The position numbers and the translations under genes were made by a program. From the NCBI GenBank assembly GCA_001603075.1, contig LVBB01000014.1, positions 116,147-180,146 on the forward strand: DNA of 64,000 nt, given 5' to 3'. This document shows positions 7,350 through 53,970 of the stretch, piece after piece. How positions within the stretch are numbered: position 1 is the stretch's first letter; every line of letters starts with the position of its first letter. The notes under the pieces were generated by a model. That model saw only the letters and a list, made by a program, of their open reading frames with translations. It made no database searches and was not told the origin of the DNA. Source of the stretch: Phycisphaerales bacterium Planc_01. Lineage in GTDB: Bacteria; Planctomycetota; Phycisphaerae; Sedimentisphaerales; Anaerobacaceae.

Positions 7350-7420
7350 ATCACTCCAGCAAATCCGACAGCGTATCGAGCCACCTGCCCGCGGTCCATG
7401 CACGGCAGCGCCATTTTAGT

Positions 7421-7449
7421 TTGCCGGGCACCAGGGGACAAGCTACAAT
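7421..7449 (+). promoter_or_regulatory. Promoter of ispG, leaderless arrangement
   Basis: TTGCCG (7421-7426), a 17-nt spacer and TACAAT (7444-7449) lie directly before ispG. The ATG begins 7 nt after the -10 hexamer, at the expected transcription start, so the mRNA probably has no leader. Confidence 0.65.
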
Positions 7450-7455
7450 CGGCCC

Positions 7456-8514
7456 ATGATTGCCAGAAGACCCACATCTTCCGTTTCGGTCGGTTCGGTG
7501 CAACTGGGTTCGTCGGGCCCGGTCGTTATCCAGTCGATGACGAAGGTTCCGACCACCGACGTCGCCCGCTGCGTCCGGCAGATTCAGCGGCTCGTTCGCG
7601 CCGGGTGCGGACTGGTCCGCATCGCCGTGCCCCGCCGGGCCGACACGATCGCGTTCGGGCAGATCGTGCAGAAGGTGCGCGTTCCGTTGATCGCCGACGT
7701 ACACTTCAGTGCCGATCGCGCCGTCGAGGCGATCGAGGCCGGGGCCGCCAAGGTCCGCCTGAACCCCGGCAACATCAAGAAGCAGCAGGACATCTTCCGG
7801 ATCATCGACGCGGCGAAGATGCACCGTGTGGCCGCCCGCATCGGCGTCAACGAGGCCAGCATTCGCGACCTGAAGAAGGCCCCCGTCCCGCCCGAGAAGC
7901 GAACGGCGCTGATGCTCGAAGAGATGCGAAGCTACATCCGGCTGTTCGAGGCTCGGGGGTTCGATCAGATCGTCCTAAGCGCCAAGAGCAGCGACGCGCT
8001 GCGCACCATCGAGGTCAACCGGGCCATCGCCGAGACATTCGGCTATCCCATCCACCTGGGTCTGACCCACGCGGGCCTGCCTGCCGACGCGAGCATCCCG
8101 TCGGCGGTGGCCCTGGGGACGCTGCTGGCCGAAGGCGTCGGGGATACCGTTCGCGTCAGTGCGGCCGGCGACCCGGTCGTCGAAACCGAGATCGCCAGGG
8201 CCATCCTCATCTGCCTGGGGCTCCTTGAGCGAACGCAGCCGGAACTGATCGTCTGCCCGACGTGCGGGCGGACGGAGATCGACGTTGTCAAGCTCGCCAA
8301 ACGGGTCGAGAGCGCGCTGCGCAAGGTCGCCAAGCCCTGTCGTGTGGCCGTGATGGGCTGTATCGTCAACGGTCCGGGCGAGGCCGCCGACGCCGACATC
8401 GCCGTCTGCGCCGCCAGAGAAAAGGCCGCTCTCTATCTCCACGGCCGCAAGATCGCCGTGGTCCCCGAGGCCGAGATCATCCCCCGCCTGCTTGGGGCGA
8501 TCGCACAGGTGTAG
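7456..8514 (+). CDS. ispG: 4-hydroxy-3-methylbut-2-enyl diphosphate synthase (IspG/GcpE)
   Basis: The 352-aa protein has the compact bacterial IspG length. This [4Fe-4S] enzyme converts MEcPP to HMBPP in the non-mevalonate isoprenoid pathway in the cytoplasm. The N-terminal TIM-barrel part contains IADVHF and KVRLNPGN. The C-terminal iron-sulfur part shows CPTCGR (about residue 266) and MGCIVNGPGEA (about residue 300), which supply the three cluster cysteines. It is a single gene between a divergent hydrolase and folC. The start is fixed by the promoter immediately upstream, with no Shine-Dalgarno sequence, so translation is probably leaderless. Confidence 0.95.
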   Translation: MIARRPTSSVSVGSVQLGSSGPVVIQSMTKVPTTDVARCVRQIQRLVRAGCGLVRIAVPRRADTIAFGQIVQKVRVPLIADVHFSADRAVEAIEAGAAKVRLNPGNIKKQQDIFRIIDAAKMHRVAARIGVNEASIRDLKKAPVPPEKRTALMLEEMRSYIRLFEARGFDQIVLSAKSSDALRTIEVNRAIAETFGYPIHLGLTHAGLPADASIPSAVALGTLLAEGVGDTVRVSAAGDPVVETEIARAILICLGLLERTQPELIVCPTCGRTEIDVVKLAKRVESALRKVAKPCRVAVMGCIVNGPGEAADADIAVCAAREKAALYLHGRKIAVVPEAEIIPRLLGAIAQV

Positions 8515-31973: not shown

Positions 31974-32522
31974 ATGGCGATAGTCGAAGATGAGCTGTTG
32001 AAATGGAAGTTCCGCCGGGGCAGCCCGGAGGCGTTGGCGCGGATCTACGAGAAGTACCTCGACTCGATGCTGACCCTGGCGATGGGATTGCTGAACAACC
32101 GGGCGGCCGCCGAGGATGTGGTGCACGACGTGTTCGTCTCGTTCGCCCGTCTGGGCCCGGGGTTCCGGCTGCGGGGCCGGCTCAGCGGCTACCTGGCGAC
32201 GAGCGTGGTCAACCGCGTTCGAGACCATCGCCGGCGTTCGCGGCGCCGGGTGCAGGCGTCGAGCCGCGAAGCCAGACCCGCCCGCGAGTCGGTCGGACCC
32301 GACGACGTGGCGAGCTTCACCGAGCAGGCGGCCCGGCTCAACGAGGCTGTCGCCCAACTGCCCGACGAGCAGCGCGAGGTCGTGCTGCTGCGGCTGAAGG
32401 CAGACATGAAGTTCCGCGACATCGCCAAGCTCCAGCAGACCTCGGTCAACACAGTCCTGGGCCGGTACCGGTACGGCCTGAATCGACTGCGAAGCACCTT
32501 GAACGGCGAGGCAGAAGAATGA
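31974..32522 (+). CDS. Sigma-70-family RNA polymerase sigma factor, cassette 1
   Basis: The 182-aa protein has region 2 (SPEALARIYEKY, then DVVHDVFVSFARL) and region 4 (QLPDEQREVVLLRLKADMKFRDIAKLQ followed by a helix-turn-helix SVNTVLGRYRYGLNRL). It lacks regions 1 and 3 and is ECF-like in size. The N-terminus (VEDELLKWKFRRGS) aligns with those of the next two sigma factors and of a relic at 39284, so they form a local paralogous group. The stop codon overlaps the start of the next gene (ATGA), implying translational coupling to a membrane partner that may be its regulator. A promoter-like motif shared with the other cassettes lies about 36 nt upstream of the start. Confidence 0.9.
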   Translation: MAIVEDELLKWKFRRGSPEALARIYEKYLDSMLTLAMGLLNNRAAAEDVVHDVFVSFARLGPGFRLRGRLSGYLATSVVNRVRDHRRRSRRRVQASSREARPARESVGPDDVASFTEQAARLNEAVAQLPDEQREVVLLRLKADMKFRDIAKLQQTSVNTVLGRYRYGLNRLRSTLNGEAEE

Positions 32523-33994
32523 AACCGAAGAAGAAAGTCGAAAACGCCATTCGCAACAAACTGCGGTTCACCGCACGCTCGACGCTGCGCGACCGACTGT
32601 TGACGGATGTCATGAACGCACGGGAAGAATCCATGCAAATTAGACCGGTCCCTTGCAGGCCGGGTATCGGGAGACGAATCATGAAGACTCGAATCGCAAA
32701 AGTAGCTTCCGTCGCGGCGGTCATCGCCGTGGCGGCGCTGGCCCTGACGTTCTGGAGCCGGTCCAGCTCGCCCGCCTATGCCATCACGGACCTGCCCGCC
32801 CAGTTCGAACAGGCCCGTACCATCCACGTGCGGGGCTGGCACTACTTCCCGGAGCACACGATGCCCGACGGCAGCCCGGTCCCGCCGTCGGCGATCGACA
32901 ATTGGACGGACGTGGTGAACGCCCGCTCCCGGTACACCACAACAGGTCTGCTGACCGGCGGCGTCGATGGTACCAAGGTGATCGTAAGCGAAGTCGTCCG
33001 CGATGGCCCTTCCTGGATGCGAATCGACCACGGCGATAGAAGGTCCGTCACGTACTTTCGCGTGAGCGAATATCAACAGAAGCTGGGCGTGCGCCAGATC
33101 TCGAAGCTGATTTCGGGACAACTGTTCGGCGACATCACACAGCTTTCCGATTCCATCGTGGTGGGCGCCGAGCGAATCGACGGCGTCGCCTGCGACATCT
33201 GGCAATCGGACGATTCTCACGGCGGGCGATGGAGGCAGTGGCTGGCGGCTGATACCGGCCGGCTGGCGCGGGCACAGTTCTTGCGGAAGATGGGCTCGGG
33301 TGAATGGAAGATCGCGACGGACTATTCGCTCATCGAGTACAACACCGAGCCGCCGGAGGGCACCTTCTCTTTGGAGCCGCCCGAGGGTTATACAGCGGAC
33401 AATTCCCCCCAGACCGGTTACTCCATGGATCTCGGCGACGGCGGCCACCCGGGATTTCAAGACGACCAATGGCACTACAAGTGCGGCCCCGAGATGGCCT
33501 TTGCTCTGGCGGATGGGAGCATCGTTCTCGGATGGCGGAGCTTCGACCCCAAGGACACGCAAAAGCAGACGCTGCTTTTTGAGGGTGTGGCGTTCGGCGG
33601 GCCTTTGCCGAAGCTGCCCATCGAATTCTATGCCCTCAAACCGGCCGAGGGTCCCGGCGGGCCCCTCTATACGGGCTACCATCTGGCCTTCACACGCAAA
33701 CAGGACAGATTCACCGAATGGGGTTTGTACGTTCCGAACGGCCCACCACCCGCGGATGTCCAGGAGACCGGGTACGAGATGCTCTACCGATGGAATCTCG
33801 AATTCGCACGGAACTTCGTCTTCGAGCACATGACCGTGAAGCCCGAATTCACGATCGAAACGACCGCCGAGTTCGACGAATGGGTCCTCGGTGCGATGGC
33901 CGAACTCGCCGACAACGGCACGGCCCCGGCGGATGTGACCTATCAGAAAGTCATCGATCTGGCCCAACAGGTTCGCACGTCGGTCGCACCGTAG
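32519..33994 (+). CDS. Membrane partner of sigma factor 1, possible anti-sigma/sensor
   Basis: The 491-aa protein starts at an ATG overlapping the sigma stop. Residues about 6-38 carry a charged motif (VENAIRNKLRFTARSTLRDRLLTDVM) also found at the start of the partners in cassettes 2 and 3. A membrane helix follows at about 58-80 (IAKVASVAAVIAVAALALTF), then a large extracytoplasmic part of about 410 residues with YPE-type LolA-like or outer-membrane-lipoprotein-sorting-like strands and no recognised enzyme motif. I infer that the cytoplasmic head binds the sigma factor and the outer part senses a signal. No zinc-binding anti-sigma (HxxxCxxC) motif is present, so this is unproven. Confidence 0.78.
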   Translation: MKPKKKVENAIRNKLRFTARSTLRDRLLTDVMNAREESMQIRPVPCRPGIGRRIMKTRIAKVASVAAVIAVAALALTFWSRSSSPAYAITDLPAQFEQARTIHVRGWHYFPEHTMPDGSPVPPSAIDNWTDVVNARSRYTTTGLLTGGVDGTKVIVSEVVRDGPSWMRIDHGDRRSVTYFRVSEYQQKLGVRQISKLISGQLFGDITQLSDSIVVGAERIDGVACDIWQSDDSHGGRWRQWLAADTGRLARAQFLRKMGSGEWKIATDYSLIEYNTEPPEGTFSLEPPEGYTADNSPQTGYSMDLGDGGHPGFQDDQWHYKCGPEMAFALADGSIVLGWRSFDPKDTQKQTLLFEGVAFGGPLPKLPIEFYALKPAEGPGGPLYTGYHLAFTRKQDRFTEWGLYVPNGPPPADVQETGYEMLYRWNLEFARNFVFEHMTVKPEFTIETTAEFDEWVLGAMAELADNGTAPADVTYQKVIDLAQQVRTSVAP

Positions 33995-34020
33995 GCGTGA
34001 AATCCTCCGGAATCGATTCA

Positions 34021-34048
34021 GGCCGGACGGCGGAGGTCCGGCCTTTTT
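34021..34048 (+). terminator. Terminator of sigma cassette 1
   Basis: GGCCGGAC and GTCCGGCC form an 8-bp perfect stem around GGCGGAG, followed by TTTTT and CATGCGC. Nearly identical copies end cassettes 2 and 3. Confidence 0.9.
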
Positions 34049-34168
34049 CATGCGCGTTTGTCGCCGGGAGACGGGCGGAGAGAAATCTCGGCATTTTCCC
34101 ATACCCAAAGGAGCATCTGGTTTGTGGTATAAATGACGGTGATCCTGAACTTGGGAAAGTCGGTGCGG

Positions 34169-34714
34169 ATGCTGGAAGACACGGTGCTCATCTGGAGGTT
34201 CAAACGCGGCAGCCGCGAGGCGCTGTGCCGGATCTACGAGAAGTACCGCACCGACCTGCTCCGGCTGGCGGCCCTGCTGCTGAGGGACAAAGGCGACGCC
34301 GAGGACGTGGTGCACGACGTCTTCGTGTCCTTCGCCCGGTCGGCCGAAATGCTGAGGCTCGTCGGCAGCCTGAAGGGGTATCTGCTGACCTGCGTCGCCA
34401 ACAACGCACGCAATCGCAACCGGGCCCGGCAGCGCAGGCAGACGGTCGGACTGGACGAGGCGGCGGAGTTGGCCTCCCCGGATACGACGCCCGACCAGTG
34501 GATCGCATACAGCGAAGAATTGCAGCGGTGGAGCGATGCACTGGCAGAGTTGCCCTACGAACAGAGGGAGGTCGTCACGCTGCACCTGCGGGCGGGCATG
34601 ACGTTTCGCCGGATCGCCCGTTCACAGGCGGTCTCCGTCAACACCGCCAAGGGCCGGTATCGTTACGCCCTGGCAAGACTGCGGTCAACGTTCAATGGCG
34701 AGTTGGAACCATGA
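34169..34714 (+). CDS. Sigma-70-family sigma factor, cassette 2
   Basis: The 181-aa protein has region 2 (GSREALCRIYEKYRTDLL, EDVVHDVFVSFARS) and region 4 (LPYEQREVVTLHLRAGMTFRRIARSQ, SVNTAKGRYRYALARLRS). The ATG at 34169 is preferred because the frame's earlier ATG at 34133 overlaps a TATAAA promoter box; the chosen start also aligns with the GTG start of the cassette 3 sigma factor. It is closely related to the sigma factors of cassettes 1 and 3. Its stop overlaps the next gene's ATG (ATGA). Confidence 0.88.
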   Translation: MLEDTVLIWRFKRGSREALCRIYEKYRTDLLRLAALLLRDKGDAEDVVHDVFVSFARSAEMLRLVGSLKGYLLTCVANNARNRNRARQRRQTVGLDEAAELASPDTTPDQWIAYSEELQRWSDALAELPYEQREVVTLHLRAGMTFRRIARSQAVSVNTAKGRYRYALARLRSTFNGELEP

Positions 34715-35157
34715 GATCGGAACAAGACATCGAGCGGTCTTTCAAACAGGCGAATCTCCAGGTCACAATCGGCGCCGAGCGGGACGGCCGGATTCTGGAT
34801 GAACTGGTTGAAGTACAGTGTAAGTCCGCTTCGCCGCATCCCGCCCTGCGGCCGGCGTCCCGCTCCTGGGCACTGAGCCTGGCCGCTGTCGTGGCAGTCG
34901 TCATCGTCATCGCCCTGCTCGTCAGCCGCAACGGGCCGCCGGAACCCGAACCAGCGCCGTCGAGACCGCAGATCGTATCGAGGATCGAACTGGCGACCGC
35001 CATCTCGCTCGAAAAGGCGTTTCGACAAGGCGGAATCGAGGCGGTGGAGAAACAGTACAAAGAGACTTTTGGAGCCTTTCGGGCAGACGCGAAGACTCCA
35101 TCGGTCGACGAGTTGCTGACGCACCTGGAAAACGAGATTACAGACCTTAAGAGGTGA
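34711..35157 (+). CDS. Small membrane partner of sigma factor 2, putative anti-sigma protein
   Basis: The 148-aa protein has a charged cytoplasmic head (IERSFKQANLQ, RDGRILDELVE), a membrane helix at about residues 52-72, a proline-rich linker (PPEPEPAPSRP) and a C-terminal segment with SLEKAFRQGGIEAVEKQY. The tail motif is repeated in the partner at 52985-53419 (SLRASYRQGGEEAL). The head motif matches the partners of cassettes 1 and 3. Size, topology and coupling to the sigma gene are those of an anti-sigma factor, although the classic zinc motif is absent. The next gene begins 5 bp downstream. Confidence 0.78.
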   Translation: MRSEQDIERSFKQANLQVTIGAERDGRILDELVEVQCKSASPHPALRPASRSWALSLAAVVAVVIVIALLVSRNGPPEPEPAPSRPQIVSRIELATAISLEKAFRQGGIEAVEKQYKETFGAFRADAKTPSVDELLTHLENEITDLKR

Positions 35158-35162
35158 GACCT

Positions 35163-36329
35163 ATGACAGCGAAAAGGAGTCACGTGATGGGACTGCTGTT
35201 TGCCGTGGCATTCGCGCCCTGTGCGTCGCCGGCCGCGGCGTACCCGCCGGACAACGCCGCCGTGCTCTACTACCAGGCCTTCATGCTCTATCAAGCCGAA
35301 GACGAGATCAAGCCGATGCTGGATGATTACTGGCATGGCCAGATCGAGCTCAATGAGACACTGGAGACATATCTCGCGAAGAACCGACGCATCATCGACA
35401 TGGTGCTCGATGCCACGCGCATCGACCGCTGCGACTGGGGTATGGACTACTCTCAGGGCACCGAGGTGCTGCTGCCCCCCCACAACCAGGCCAGGAACAT
35501 CTTCTTCCTCATCGCGGCCGAGGCCACCATGCAGTTCGACCGGGGGCACACGAGGACGGCCCTGGAGCGCTGCGTGGCCATGTACCGCATGGCGCGGCAC
35601 CTCAACGAGCGTCCGCTGATCTGCTATCTGGTCGGCGTCGCGATCAACGCGGCGACCCACAGGTGTCTCACACGGTTCCTTTCTGAGATGCCGACGGACG
35701 TCGAGACGCTGACCTGGCTGCAATCGGAGCTGGCCGGACTCGACAAGAGACCGTTTGCGATCGAGCCGGTGCTCCAGTGGAAGCGCGAAGCAGCGATCGT
35801 CTCCATGTCGCCCGACAAGATCGGCAGCGCCGTGCAGGCTGGCCTGGACGATAGCGATCAGAAGAACAAGACTCTGGAACGCGTTCGCACTGCCGACGCG
35901 CCGTTCTACACCAGGAACATCGCCTACTGGAACGATTTCATGGATCACGTCGAAGCGGCCTTCGCGATGCCCTATCCGCAAGCGTACGCGGAACTCCAGA
36001 AACTCGACAAGAAACCATGTGAGGAATTTGACGCGAATCCGGATGCGACGTTGACCGCCTGTTTCTCGCCGGAGTTCCTGCGAATCTACGCCCTGTCCAT
36101 TCGACTGGACGCTCATTCCAAAGCGTTGCGGACTGCGGTCGAGGTGTATCTGACCAAGGCGCGAACGGGCCAACTGCCCGAGAGCTTGCCTGAGGGGCTG
36201 CCACACGATCCGTTCAGTGGCGAACCATTCCAGTACGAGACGACCGTGGACGGCTTCACCCTGCGATGTGCCGGCAGGGACCTGGACAAGAACGAACCCT
36301 ACACCTTCGAGTACGGCGTCAAGAAATAG
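35163..36329 (+). CDS. Secreted protein of sigma cassette 2, unknown function
   Basis: The 388-aa protein has a signal peptide (MTAKRSHVMGLLFAVAFAP...AAA). The start at 35163 has GAGGTG upstream; an internal ATG at 35187 with AAGGAG is an alternative but would remove the basic n-region. Conserved stretches shared with the protein at 51792-52964 are NAAVLYYQAF, RCDWGMDYSQG, ISYLVGVA-like ICYLVGVAIN, LPHDPFSGEPFQY and LRCAGRDLDK. The body is mainly helical with no catalytic signature. It is probably the secreted output or ligand of the sigma/partner pair. Function is not recognised. Confidence 0.82.
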   Translation: MTAKRSHVMGLLFAVAFAPCASPAAAYPPDNAAVLYYQAFMLYQAEDEIKPMLDDYWHGQIELNETLETYLAKNRRIIDMVLDATRIDRCDWGMDYSQGTEVLLPPHNQARNIFFLIAAEATMQFDRGHTRTALERCVAMYRMARHLNERPLICYLVGVAINAATHRCLTRFLSEMPTDVETLTWLQSELAGLDKRPFAIEPVLQWKREAAIVSMSPDKIGSAVQAGLDDSDQKNKTLERVRTADAPFYTRNIAYWNDFMDHVEAAFAMPYPQAYAELQKLDKKPCEEFDANPDATLTACFSPEFLRIYALSIRLDAHSKALRTAVEVYLTKARTGQLPESLPEGLPHDPFSGEPFQYETTVDGFTLRCAGRDLDKNEPYTFEYGVKK

Positions 36330-36353
36330 ACGCAGCCTTGCACTATCATGAGA

Positions 36354-36382
36354 GGCCGGACGGCGGAGGTCCGGCCTTTTTT
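36354..36382 (+). terminator. Terminator of sigma cassette 2
   Basis: The stem GGCCGGAC/GTCCGGCC with loop GGCGGAG is identical to the cassette 1 terminator and is followed by TTTTTTATGCGCG. Confidence 0.9.
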
Positions 36383-36516
36383 ATGCGCGGGCGCTGGCTG
36401 CCGGCTCGATTGGGTGGGCAATCGCTTTTTGAATGAGTAAAACCGGCCTGGCGGGTGTTATATAGGCGAATGTGGATCGATCCCCGATGGCCATCGGGAT
36501 TCGGAGGCTCGGCGTC

Positions 36517-37092
36517 GTGCTGGAAGACCGATATCTCGTTTGGCGGCTGAAGCAGGGAAGCCGCGACGCGCTATGCCGCATCTATGGCAAGTACAGAGAC
36601 GATCTGCTCCGGCTGGCGGTTTCGCTGTCCAACGAGACGACGTTGGCGGAGGACGTCGTCCAGGACGTGTTCGTCGCGTTCATCGGCGACGCGCCTCAGT
36701 TCCGGCTGACCGGCTCTCTGAAGAGTTACCTGGCGACGTGCGTGGCCAACCGCGTGCGAAACGCCAACCGCGACCGCCGGCGGCGCGAGCAGGTCGGCCT
36801 CGACGAGATCCAATCGGTCGCCTCCGAATCGGTCCGGCCGGACCAGTGGGCCATCTGTAGCGAGGAACTGGAGCGCGCCGCCCGCGCGATGGCCCTGCTT
36901 TCATACGAACAACGCGAGGTGATCGCCCTGCGTCTTCAGGGTGCACTGAAGTTCCGCCAGATCGCGGAACTGCAAGGCGTGCCGATCAAGACGGTCCTGA
37001 GCCGATACCGGTGCGGACTCGGGAAGCTTCGGTCGCTGCTCAATGGTGAGGTAATACGATGCGATCGCTCAGAGATATCGAGAAGTCTGTAG
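36517..37092 (+). CDS. Sigma-70-family sigma factor, cassette 3
   Basis: The 191-aa protein starts at GTG 36517, with GGAGG about 10 nt upstream; the GTG aligns with the start of the cassette 2 sigma factor (VLEDRYLVWRLKQGSRDALCRIYGKY). Region 4 is LLSYEQREVIALRLQGALKFRQIAELQ followed by VPIKTVLSRYRCGLGKLRS. The C-terminus runs 34 bp into the following gene, a longer overlap than in the other cassettes. It has the same compact ECF-like architecture and probably regulates its own cassette. Confidence 0.88.
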   Translation: MLEDRYLVWRLKQGSRDALCRIYGKYRDDLLRLAVSLSNETTLAEDVVQDVFVAFIGDAPQFRLTGSLKSYLATCVANRVRNANRDRRRREQVGLDEIQSVASESVRPDQWAICSEELERAARAMALLSYEQREVIALRLQGALKFRQIAELQGVPIKTVLSRYRCGLGKLRSLLNGEVIRCDRSEISRSL

Positions 37093-39089
37093 CCCAGGCA
37101 GGCATTCGAACGGCCCCCGGCGCCGACCGGGTGGTCCTGGAACATCTGCTTGAGCAATTGCCCGACAACCAAAAGAGATCTTCGGCGGCGTACAATCCGC
37201 CGAAGGGAAGGAGAAGCATTATGAGAAGTCCAGTCACGAAACTGGCTGCGGCAGCAGTATTCACAGGCGTCGTAGGCGTGCTTGTCGCCGTAATGGTCCG
37301 GACAACGACGCCGGCCTACGCCTTCGGGCAGACGGTGCAAGCGATGCAGGGCAAACGCTCGTTCCACATCCAAACCTATTTCCAACAGCAACGCAAAGAT
37401 GAATTCTGGGCCGAGTTCGACGAAGATGGAAACCTGATTCGCTTCCGGCAACACGAAGGCGAAGGTCCGGAGAACACGCTCGTGACGATCTGGGAAGACA
37501 ACGTCATGAGCCAGTACTATCCACCGCCGTGGGGCCTTCATCTGATGACGCACGTCGAGAACACCGGCGGCGGATTGGAGGGACTGGAGCAGTTCGATCC
37601 GGAAACGATCGTCAAAGGGATTGATGCGATGGTTGTGGAGGGCAAGGCCGTCATGGAGATGGAAGAGTCTTTGCGCGATACGTACCGGATGACGATCCAT
37701 GTGAAGCGCACAGACGGCAAGCCGCTGAAACAGACTCTGGTTGTCGATCCCGCCACGAAGTTCGTCGTCAGAATCGACGACTACTGGGGCCAGGAAGACG
37801 GCGGAACGATCCACCACGGCATTGAGGTGCTGGGATACAACGAGGTGATGGACACCGGACTCTTCGAGCGCACCTTCCCGGAGGGCACTATCCTGATAGA
37901 CCAGGTGACGCAGGAGGTCGGGATGGCGCAAGGTGACATGACCAACGAGGAGGCTGCCGCGGAAGTTCTTCGTCAGATGCTGGAAGCCTGGGCGCAAGGG
38001 GATTACGCTACGGCGGGCAACCTATGCGGCGGCGCGCCGGTCGAGATGCTGAGCGAGCGTTATGTCCACCTGCGGCCCGTACGCATCCTCTCCATTGGAC
38101 AGCCGGCGCCGATCAGGTACATTTCGCCCAGGTACAGGGTTCCATGTCAGTACGAAGTCGAGCGTGACGGGCAAACGGAGGTCACAAGCCAGGAGTTCCG
38201 TGTTTTCTCCGTGAATGGCCGCCCCGGACGTTGGTATGTGTTCATTCCACACACCACCCCGATCCCCTCCAGGGACAAAGAGGTCAAGGCGATGCAGGAC
38301 GATGACGGCGCCTCCGAGGGGCACCCCGTCGCCCTGGCCGGTGCGGTGGTCGACCCGCAAGGCAACGTCGTGCCCGATGCGTGGATCTTCGCATCCTATG
38401 CCGCACCAGGTCAAACGGATGCCCAGGGGGTATTCGCCCTGCCCGCCCCGCCGACAGACGGCAGCCACACGATAGGAGCGGTGGACTTGCCTTTGTTCGT
38501 CTGGGCTTATACGGACGGCGATCCCTACAGCGTCGCTTGGACCGTGATCCGACCGCCTTCCGGGCCCACGCCGGTTCGGCGCCGAATCCCCGATGCGGCA
38601 GATAGTCCGGACGAGCGCGTTGAACAAACGCATCAGGGTGTGACACTCACCATCCGCAGCGAAGAGGATTTCCTTGCGAACTTGCCCGGCGATCCGGGCC
38701 AGCTCGCCGGCGGCGGGTCCATGGACGGCGACCCCCAGATTGGCGACGTCGTGCTCGTCACCGGTCCCGCTGACGCTGTCACGGGACAGGTAACTGACGC
38801 CAACGGCGTCCCCGTCGCCGGCGCCCTCGTCCTGGCCAAGGCGATCGAATTGCAGATCGGATCGAATACACTCCGGGTCACGCGGCTCGATGACGAATGG
38901 AAAGCCGGGTTCGCTTCGGAAACGGATGCCGACGGCCGTTACGGCCTGAACCACTTGCCGTCCTGCTGGACGCAGGCGACGCTCGTTGTACGAGCCGAAG
39001 GACGCGGAAGCACGCAACAGGTGGTTCTCCACGCCGGCGTGGATACGACATGCGACATCGTCCTGGCGGAGGCTGGCCAAGAGGATTGA
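37059..39089 (+). CDS. Membrane partner of sigma factor 3 with carboxypeptidase-regulatory-like domains
   Basis: The 676-aa protein starts inside the sigma gene; ATG 37059 has GAGGT upstream. The head (IEKSVAQAGIRTAPGADRVVLEHLLEQL) matches the partners in cassettes 1 and 2. After a membrane helix at about 62-82 come a LolA-like region (85-290), an NTF2-like stretch (EVLRQMLEAWAQGDYATAGNLC) and two carboxypeptidase-regulatory (transthyretin-like) domains. The first is ALAGAVVDPQGNVVPDAWI (about 425-475) and the second VTGQVTDANGVPVAGALVLA (about 570-676). It is probably a transmembrane sensor whose outer part binds a cell-surface or extracellular ligand; this is inferred. Confidence 0.82.
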   Translation: MRSLRDIEKSVAQAGIRTAPGADRVVLEHLLEQLPDNQKRSSAAYNPPKGRRSIMRSPVTKLAAAAVFTGVVGVLVAVMVRTTTPAYAFGQTVQAMQGKRSFHIQTYFQQQRKDEFWAEFDEDGNLIRFRQHEGEGPENTLVTIWEDNVMSQYYPPPWGLHLMTHVENTGGGLEGLEQFDPETIVKGIDAMVVEGKAVMEMEESLRDTYRMTIHVKRTDGKPLKQTLVVDPATKFVVRIDDYWGQEDGGTIHHGIEVLGYNEVMDTGLFERTFPEGTILIDQVTQEVGMAQGDMTNEEAAAEVLRQMLEAWAQGDYATAGNLCGGAPVEMLSERYVHLRPVRILSIGQPAPIRYISPRYRVPCQYEVERDGQTEVTSQEFRVFSVNGRPGRWYVFIPHTTPIPSRDKEVKAMQDDDGASEGHPVALAGAVVDPQGNVVPDAWIFASYAAPGQTDAQGVFALPAPPTDGSHTIGAVDLPLFVWAYTDGDPYSVAWTVIRPPSGPTPVRRRIPDAADSPDERVEQTHQGVTLTIRSEEDFLANLPGDPGQLAGGGSMDGDPQIGDVVLVTGPADAVTGQVTDANGVPVAGALVLAKAIELQIGSNTLRVTRLDDEWKAGFASETDADGRYGLNHLPSCWTQATLVVRAEGRGSTQQVVLHAGVDTTCDIVLAEAGQED

Positions 39090-39145
39090 GGCAGCGGCTG
39101 ACAGTTGACCTGAACCTTAAGCCGCGGCGATTTCATGAACTTGCA

Positions 39146-39173
39146 GGCCGGACTGCGGAGGTCCGGCCTTTTT
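39146..39173 (+). terminator. Terminator of sigma cassette 3
   Basis: GGCCGGAC/GTCCGGCC with loop TGCGGAG is followed by TTTTTCATGCGC. It differs from the cassette 1 copy at one loop base. Confidence 0.9.
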
Positions 39174-39283
39174 CATGCGCCAGAATCCGCGTGTGATTCG
39201 CATCGGCGTATGTAAATGCCCCCGGCTCGGTCGTTATGATGGTGGACGATCGTCAAGGTGGTGCGAATCGGACAGGTGGATCG

Positions 39284-39366
39284 ATGCTGGAAGACAGGCT
39301 ACTGGCTCTGAGGTGTTGACACGGCAGCAAGGACGCAATGAGGCGGATCTATCTGAAGTACAAGGG
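39284..39366 (+). pseudogene. Relic of a fourth sigma-factor gene
   Basis: Reading from ATG 39284 gives MLEDRLLALRC, a stop (TGA), then HGSKDAMRRIYLKYKGG. This is the same N-terminal pattern as the cassette 2 and 3 sigma factors (LEDxxLxWRxKxGSxxALCRIYxKY) in a single frame, interrupted by one nonsense codon. The similarity ends after about 27 codons and the rest of the gene is deleted. A promoter-like motif precedes it and a terminator remnant follows, so a whole cassette has collapsed. Confidence 0.75.
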
Positions 39367-39387
39367 TGGCGTCGCCGAGACACACCG

Positions 39388-39426
39388 AGAGGCCGAGTCA
39401 TCCCGCCCGGCCTCTTCTGCTGCGCC
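39388..39426 (+). repeat. Decayed cassette terminator
   Basis: AGAGGCCG and CGGCCTCT arms separated by about 13 nt, followed by TCTGCTGCGCC, resemble the cassette terminators, but with a longer loop and eroded T-tract. It lies directly behind the sigma relic and just beyond the helicase stop. Confidence 0.6.
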
Positions 39427-39443
39427 GGTGGGGGCGAGGCTCG

Positions 39444-53419: not shown

Positions 53420-53970
53420 AGTTGCACCTCGCCGAACCCTTCGCAACGCAAGAGCCTCGCCAGTTCCTTCTTGGCCCGTCTGAGCCGCCCATTGATCGCC
53501 TGCTCGGAGATTCCGAGGATCTCGCCGATCCGCTCATAGGACAGGCCATCGTAGAACCGCAGGTAGATCACCTCTCGGGCCTGCGGCTCAAGCTGCTCCA
53601 GCGCCCGGCGCACCGCCGGACCGGCGTCGTCCGGCGCAGGCTCGACCGCCTCGACCCGCGCCTCCTCGGCGTTCCGAAACCGCCGGTTAGCCTGCGCCAC
53701 ATCGTAGGCGGCGTTGCGGCAGATCGCCGCCAGCCACGAGCCGAAGTGCCCGGCCTTCCGCAAGCCGGACAGATGCAGCGCCGCCTTGGCCAGCGCCTGC
53801 TGCGCCGCATCCTCCGCCAGGTGCCGATCCCCCACGATCGCGTGCGCGATCGCCACCATCGCAGGGTAATACCGCCGGCACAACTCCGTGAAGCTGTCCC
53901 CGTCCCCTGCCCCGGCCTTCTCGACCAACACGTTGTCAGGCGTCTCTTGCGTCAATTCGCTGCATTCCAA
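53416..53970 (-). CDS. ECF sigma factor (RpoE-like), cassette 4
   Basis: The 184-aa protein starts with TTG at 53970. Region 2 is FTELCRRYYPAMVAIAHAIVGDRHLAEDAAQQALAKA split over two helices, followed by FGSWLAAICRNAAYDVAQANRR. Region 4 is LEPQAREVIYLRFYDGLSYERIGEILGISEQAINGRLRRAKKEL, a standard ECF helix-turn-helix. It is a conventional RpoE-type ECF factor, clearly different from the three sigma factors at 31974-37092, yet its partner and secreted genes are homologous to those of cassette 2. Coupling to the partner is by ATGA overlap. Confidence 0.92.
   Translation of the reverse strand: MECSELTQETPDNVLVEKAGAGDGDSFTELCRRYYPAMVAIAHAIVGDRHLAEDAAQQALAKAALHLSGLRKAGHFGSWLAAICRNAAYDVAQANRRFRNAEEARVEAVEPAPDDAGPAVRRALEQLEPQAREVIYLRFYDGLSYERIGEILGISEQAINGRLRRAKKELARLLRCEGFGEVQL

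Follow-up and report, generated by a model that had tools for sequence, protein, structure and literature searches.

Among the described systems of an extracytoplasmic function (ECF) sigma factor with its anti-sigma factor, RpoE-RseA-RseB and AlgU-MucA-MucB combine a single-pass anti-sigma factor with an exported part of LolA fold, RseB and MucB acting as shields of RseA and MucA (PMC7400510). The anti-sigma domain of RseA belongs to class I and has four helices; RseB is the product of a separate gene and binds RseA through its C-terminal domain. In class I and class II anti-sigma domains alike, it is the last helix that binds the sigma-2 domain (PMC7406223); CnrY of Cupriavidus metallidurans and NepR, which belong to class II, have two short helices and no zinc, and in CnrY the contact to sigma-2 is made by helix 2 (PMC7406223, PMC4598750). 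Domains of the CnrY/NepR type bind regions 2.1/2.2 in this way, place their first helix on sigma-4, and wrap around the sigma factor in a closed conformation. RsiV and RsiP, in which a single membrane helix is followed by a signal-peptidase motif, use signal peptidase as the site-1 protease (PMC8844934; PMC4598750). Here we describe a tandem array of three ECF sigma factor genes, each followed by the gene of a membrane-protein partner, in a stretch of 64,000 nucleotides (nt) from Phycisphaerales bacterium Planc_01 (contig LVBB01000014.1). This stretch is called the window, its positions serve as coordinates, and relatives' loci and genomes are labeled with L and G numbers.

By comparative analysis, we consider it highly probable that these are ECF sigma/anti-sigma cassettes in which most partner genes carry two in-frame starts, one for an anchored inhibitor and one for a sensor that is exported in free form. 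The observations behind this reading are the adjacency of sigma and partner genes, co-variation between their products, start signatures at both ATGs, a signal-peptidase motif, the LolA/RseB fold modeled for partner 3, and the exchange of outer domains. As in the RpoE and AlgU systems, an ECF sigma factor is accompanied by a putative single-pass anti-sigma factor and a LolA-fold exported part, but here the LolA-like part is fused to the anti-sigma factor and apparently also made alone from the nested start; partner 3 further appears to have an NTF2-like second domain at the place of RseB's C-terminal domain. Like RsiV and RsiP, the partners have a signal-peptidase motif that follows their only membrane helix, with the difference that regulated cleavage is known for those proteins, whereas the motif is known here from sequence. 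A nested start has not been reported for RsiV or RsiP in the literature that we searched.

The three sigma genes (31974..32522, 34169..34714, and 36517..37092) lie on the plus strand, as do all further features of the array given below. Their products, 181-191 amino acids (aa) long, match Sigma70_r2 (E-values of 4.5e-12, 8.5e-11, and 2.6e-12, respectively) and Sigma70_r4_2 (2.9e-7, 2.7e-8, and 4.8e-6) above cut-off, and sigma factor 3 also passes the cut-off of TIGR02937 (sigma70-ECF). The host genome, of 5.65 Mb, contains 40 Sigma70_r2 matches. Each sigma stop is overlapped by the start of the partner gene, by 4 nt (ATGA) in cassettes 1 and 2 and by 34 nt in cassette 3. Partner 1 (32519..33994; 491 aa) consists of a two-helix anti-sigma motif (profile match 5.7e-28), a signal-anchor, and an outer domain. 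Partner 2 (34711..35157; 148 aa) has the two-helix motif, a membrane helix, and a short tail, and lacks the nested start. Partner 3 (37059..39089; 676 aa) has helices at residues 4-13 and 20-33, a signal-anchor at 58-82, a LolA/RseB-like domain at 86-285, an NTF2-like domain at approximately 293-398, and CarboxypepD_reg domains. A preliminary description of this DNA had proposed three tandem sigma-70-family genes, each overlapping the start of its partner, and an N-terminal motif common to the partners. Domain matches and coordinates bear out the former, and a profile of the motif matches all three proteins.

In partners 1 and 3, what appears as the membrane helix is a signal-peptide-like segment with a Shine-Dalgarno sequence and an ATG of its own. 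In partner 1, the internal Shine-Dalgarno sequence GGGAGA (32669-32674) precedes an in-frame ATG at codon 55 (32681-32683), from which the segment runs to codon 88 (32681..32782) and ends in AYA; in partner 3, the sequence AAGGAGAA (37208-37215) precedes an ATG (37221-37223), again at codon 55. The genome has the matching 16S-type anti-Shine-Dalgarno tail, CACCTCCTTTC. Among relatives, the DNA consensus is nGGAGA, 6 nt, and ATG, located just ahead of the membrane helix. The nested Met is present in 153/181 partners, and in 150 of these 153 its ATG is preceded by a stretch that matches the Shine-Dalgarno sequence over 4 nt or more, compared with 27% in synonymous shuffles, 22% at 1436 other internal ATGs, and 86% at the partners' first ATG.

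The constraint on this element extends to the choice of codons. Three positions before the nested Met, Arg occurs in 153/181 partners and is encoded by AGA in 137 of these 153, against a background of approximately 15%. At position -4, 171/181 partners have Trp, Arg, or Gly, dissimilar residues with a common NGG codon, Arg being written as AGG or CGG and Gly mostly as GGG. Synonymous deviation peaks exactly at the -4 and -3 codons (1.36 and 1.44, with a median of 0.20). Conservation of amino acids alone was considered as the source of the W/R-R-x-I-M motif and is ruled out, since the codon choice (AGG, GGG, AGA) is constrained as well. Both ATGs are followed by A-rich codons, as at true starts, and the predicted mRNA structure around the second ATG is weaker than in synonymous shuffles (-3.4 vs -6.0 kcal/mol, p 5e-20), with a difference of at most 0.7 kcal/mol in flanking windows 20-45 codons away. 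Our literature search found no earlier report of internal starts in anti-sigma genes, although this search was incomplete and such an absence is no proof.

Behind the helix, an [AVSTG]xA signal-peptidase site is found in 122/134 relatives, compared with 20-27% in control stretches further on. Its conservation, together with the precedent of signal peptidase as site-1 protease for RsiV and RsiP (PMC8844934, PMC4598750), would also fit a serious if somewhat doubtful alternative, in which the AxA is mainly a point of regulated site-1 cleavage: signal peptidase would cut the full-length anti-sigma factor on a signal, and a site-2 protease would then free the sigma factor. Such regulated cleavage, however, leaves the signatures of the inner start unexplained. 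Cleavage at the AxA is moreover compatible with two starts and could act on the long form too.

The inner element may also be read without any second product. Ribosomes can be slowed by internal Shine-Dalgarno-like stretches, and almost every partner has GGAGA-ATG directly ahead of its membrane segment, so that the partners could be single-product anti-sigma factors in which the element pauses the ribosome and aids insertion of the membrane helix. We regard this as unlikely, because a pause would need no ATG at fixed spacing, weak mRNA structure across that ATG, or A-rich codons after it. Furthermore, Met and Shine-Dalgarno sequence are lost together (p 1e-16), often in short-tail partners whose downstream neighbor encodes an exported protein, even though the membrane helix is kept. 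An exported part of fewer than 120 aa occurs in 9/23 partners without the nested start, compared with 2/138 partners with it.

Cassette 2 represents a natural control in this respect, with a short tail, no inner start, and an exported protein from a gene of its own. This gene (35163..36329) is coupled to that of partner 2 and encodes 388 aa with a signal peptide if read from the ATG at 35163, a GTG at 35154 being a possible alternative start. The exported protein has no Pfam or NCBIfam match; its model is mostly helical, with a predicted local distance difference test (pLDDT) score of 70.9, and the sequence PPDNAA follows the signal peptide. Relatives of this protein are found behind other short-tail anti-sigma genes. 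Where an intact short-tail partner lacks the second ATG, the next gene is a separate one for an exported protein, beginning -4 to +19 nt from the partner stop, and the genes in this place encode either exported proteins of YPPDNAA type or lipoprotein-like ones. The exceptions, L104 and L217, both appear truncated or degenerate. This pattern suggests that a cassette tends to provide both an anti-sigma factor and a separate exported protein, either from two genes or, as we infer, from two starts.

The module of Shine-Dalgarno sequence, ATG, and signal peptide is also found behind other cytosolic N-terminal domains, including CxxC (zinc) types, with a Shine-Dalgarno sequence in 37 of the 43 cases that have the Met. 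Examples of CxxC or other cytosolic domains joined to the module are L030 (9733-11071), L125, L145, L152, and L186, among others. That various cytosolic domains precede the same module, and that loci of the cassette 2 type hold both functions as separate genes, would fit a past fusion of an anti-sigma gene with an exported-protein gene, of which the inner start is a relic and no longer relevant. We hold this to be highly improbable, as the element is retained at the level of single bases across diverged paralogs, with a Shine-Dalgarno sequence in 98% of Met-bearing partners, which is far more conservation than expected of a relic in decay.

The cytosolic motif itself is tied to sigma genes. 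Searched over the window's genome, its profile gives exactly eight strong matches (E 2e-30 to 4e-22; the next is 2.9e-5), and all eight adjoin a sigma gene of this type. In the fetched DNA, 140 of 156 strong matches have a sigma gene of this kind immediately upstream, the 4-nt ATGA overlap being by far the commonest arrangement; the rest are mostly cases at contig ends or with a different N-terminal domain, with one intact exception (L100:3173). Conversely, a search starting from the sigma factor alone, which retrieved loci mostly from Phycisphaerae, Sedimentisphaerales, and Planctomycetota metagenome-assembled genomes (MAGs), found the motif in the downstream gene at virtually every one of 56 readable loci, and a later independent set gave adjacency in 17/17. 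A natural fusion of sigma factor and motif was not found; at L069, L103, L121, and L138, sigma and partner genes are in frame and could be read through a stop. Comparison of the window with L094 shows purifying selection on the motif in each of the three cassettes, with ratios of nonsynonymous to synonymous substitution rates (dN/dS) of 0.09-0.18 (0.18 in partner 1).

Most genomes with the motif family belong to the same order as the window. Up to 35 matches per genome were counted in a set of 61, made up of the source genome of the window and 60 relatives. Of 298 genomes of the class, 50 are positive, 45 of them from this order, and a phylum-wide survey found 5 positives among 392 genomes, 4 of them again from the same order.

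Direct contact between motif and sigma factor is supported by their co-variation. Coupling analysis of 181 non-redundant sigma-motif pairs (effective number 158), with 40 shuffled pairings as the null, yielded two inter-protein couplings with direct-coupling scores of 3.03 and 2.98, the shuffled maximum being 1.65. Sigma column 30 is Lys or Arg together with motif Asp22 in 105/108 pairs (p 6e-34) and is Leu, Glu, Val, or Ala where motif position 22 is Arg, His, or Tyr. Sigma His52 (His51 of sigma factor 1, within EDVVHDVF) is paired with Asp or Glu at motif position 28 (p 9e-19), and column 52 is Gln where position 28 is mostly Arg or Lys. Both columns fall within sigma-2 (region 2), and the charge-swap pattern recurs when paralogs from one genome are compared with each other. 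When the test columns are left out of tree building, 8 changes within the 30/22 pair share branch and direction, compared with 0.67 expected and a maximum of 4 in 5000 draws.

The three window partners lack the zinc ligand motif (HxxxCxxC), with at most one Cys in each cytosolic part, and in the model of partner 3 the helices at residues 4-13 and 20-33 are the only substantial cytosolic elements, at a modest local pLDDT of 56-72. A search of the PDB by sequence returned nothing significant for the motif; the best matches were the N-terminal domains of MucA and RseA (E 0.26 and 0.33). Among NCBIfam families, NF038083 (CU044_5270 family) and NF052375 (anti-sigma factor) match the N-terminus and membrane helix of partners 2 and 3 weakly (E 3e-4 to 7.5e-3), far under the family cut-off (16-21 bits vs 100). 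Pfam gives no match to the motif, which would suit a partner that is merely co-transcribed and a motif with some other role at the membrane, but this is scarcely credible given the charge-complementary, residue-specific co-variation with sigma region 2 and the replacement of the motif elsewhere by CxxC (zinc-type) domains ahead of the same module.

By far the most likely reading of the motif is therefore a two-helix, zinc-free anti-sigma domain that works like those of class II (CnrY). The preliminary description had proposed a small anti-sigma domain without the classical zinc site, which is well supported by the charge-swap co-variation and the missing zinc ligands; its concern that the motif might occur mostly away from sigma genes is answered by the adjacency counts given above. 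As in CnrY, two short helices would do without zinc, and the co-variation points to the same contact of helix 2 with sigma-2. The resemblance is meant as one of working mode and makes no claim of descent from class II: no sequence relation to CnrY or NepR was detected in the PDB search, and members of that class share little sequence among themselves. The window's family further differs from CnrY and NepR by its very large paralogous expansion and its nested start.

Several points weigh against the proposal of two-start anti-sigma cassettes. The 52/28 pair is weaker once phylogeny is allowed for, with 7 shared changes compared with 2.0 expected and a null maximum of 7. A contact of helix 1 with sigma-4, as in domains of the CnrY/NepR type, is weakly indicated, the couplings of motif Ile6 with sigma columns 141 and 171 (1.38 and 1.07) lying within the shuffled range. 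The Met is missing at the aligned column in 28/181 partners, including some that retain a long outer domain, which means that not every such gene would give the second product. Moreover, the constraint at the DNA level indicates an element like a ribosome-binding site but gives no amount of product, and the support is comparative throughout and comes mostly from MAGs.

The outer domains fall into approximately 22 groups, most of which are linked into one LolA-like superfamily. For the modeled outer domain of partner 3 (residues 86-285), the top Foldseek match is RseB (E 6e-8). Residues 86-282 align to RseB with a Z-score of 11.1 and a root-mean-square deviation of 4.5 over 171-172 residues, and LolA-type carriers reach Z-scores of up to 14.4. 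Residues 293-398, folded together with other parts of the protein, have NTF2-like matches that include the anti-sigma factor RsgI9 (Z 9.4). The LolA-like and carboxypeptidase-regulatory outer domains that the preliminary description had assigned to partner 3 thus reappear in the fold of the model and in the CarboxypepD_reg matches.

Its suggestion that outer domains are interchangeable agrees with the number of groups and with a comparison of congeneric genomes. Cassette 1 of the window is 87% identical throughout to that of G001 (L270), whereas identity to G002 (L094) is approximately 91% up to position ~32797, just past the signal peptide, and approximately 62% thereafter. The simplest reading would be that the outer domain of cassette 1 has been exchanged as a unit between congeneric genomes.

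Each cassette is followed by one copy of an intrinsic-terminator repeat of family D4 (34019..34055, 36352..36388, and 39144..39180), the copies being 95-97% identical. Behind the last, at 39284..39373, lies the remnant of a fourth sigma gene, covering the first 30 residues with an in-frame stop (tblastn with sigma factor 3: 50% identity, E 4.5e-4). At the same place, the array of the congeneric locus L094 is longer and includes a truncated sigma copy of its own (7360-7578, approximately 73 residues). Together, these remnants suggest that the array gains and loses cassettes.

At the 3' ends of the sigma genes (e.g., 32500-32521), the conserved C-terminal NGEV or NSEV coincides with the Shine-Dalgarno sequence (GAGGT) of the partner's first start, which suggests that protein conservation may here partly be conservation of a ribosome site. 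Upstream of the sigma genes, in the window (36457-36483) and in relatives, a perfect palindrome, 10 nt or longer, lies 4-8 nt behind a TGTTATAT box (33/102 observed vs 3.4 expected). The sequence of the palindrome varies by cassette group (CAATCGATTG, CAAACGTTTG, GGATCGATCC, and others), and the palindrome linked to the box resembles an operator specific to each group, close to the start of transcription. Elsewhere in the window, an ECF sigma gene of another type (53680-53880, minus strand) has a short membrane partner (144 aa) with a similar tail at its end.

Taken as a mechanism, the first ~38 residues of a partner would form a minimal zinc-free two-helix anti-sigma domain, whose second helix would contact region 2 of the cognate sigma factor and probably keep it off RNA polymerase. 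Sigma factor and long partner would be made by coupled translation and then bind each other, the first start, overlapping the sigma stop, giving an anchored protein of anti-sigma domain, membrane helix, and outer domain. From the inner start with its own Shine-Dalgarno sequence, the same outer domain would be made as a signal-peptide precursor and released outside the cytoplasm. One gene may hence yield both an inhibitor anchored like RseA and a free sensor of RseB type; in short-tail cassettes such as cassette 2, the exported protein would instead come from the separate downstream gene. A ligand sensed by the LolA-like domain could then alter the long form, perhaps permitting signal peptidase to cut at the AxA in the way known from RsiV and RsiP. 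Alternatively, the free form could act on the long form by competition or by shielding, the latter in the manner of RseB and MucB toward RseA and MucA.

To our knowledge, almost no signaling system has been studied in this bacterial group. This order of Planctomycetota has up to ~35 such pairs per genome, with an anti-sigma domain that falls outside all Pfam and NCBIfam families. The two residue pairs constitute a testable binding code and could help to predict cognate pairs. The nested start, which the preliminary description did not contain, would make the dosage of the outer domain separable from that of the anti-sigma domain, and the anchored and free forms of a sensor may be set by two ribosome-binding sites of one gene. 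Probably, the whole anti-sigma gene family is built as two genes in one, with the inner module placed behind several unrelated anti-sigma domains and the sensor swapped by recombination, so that the signaling repertoire of the order would diversify by module exchange.

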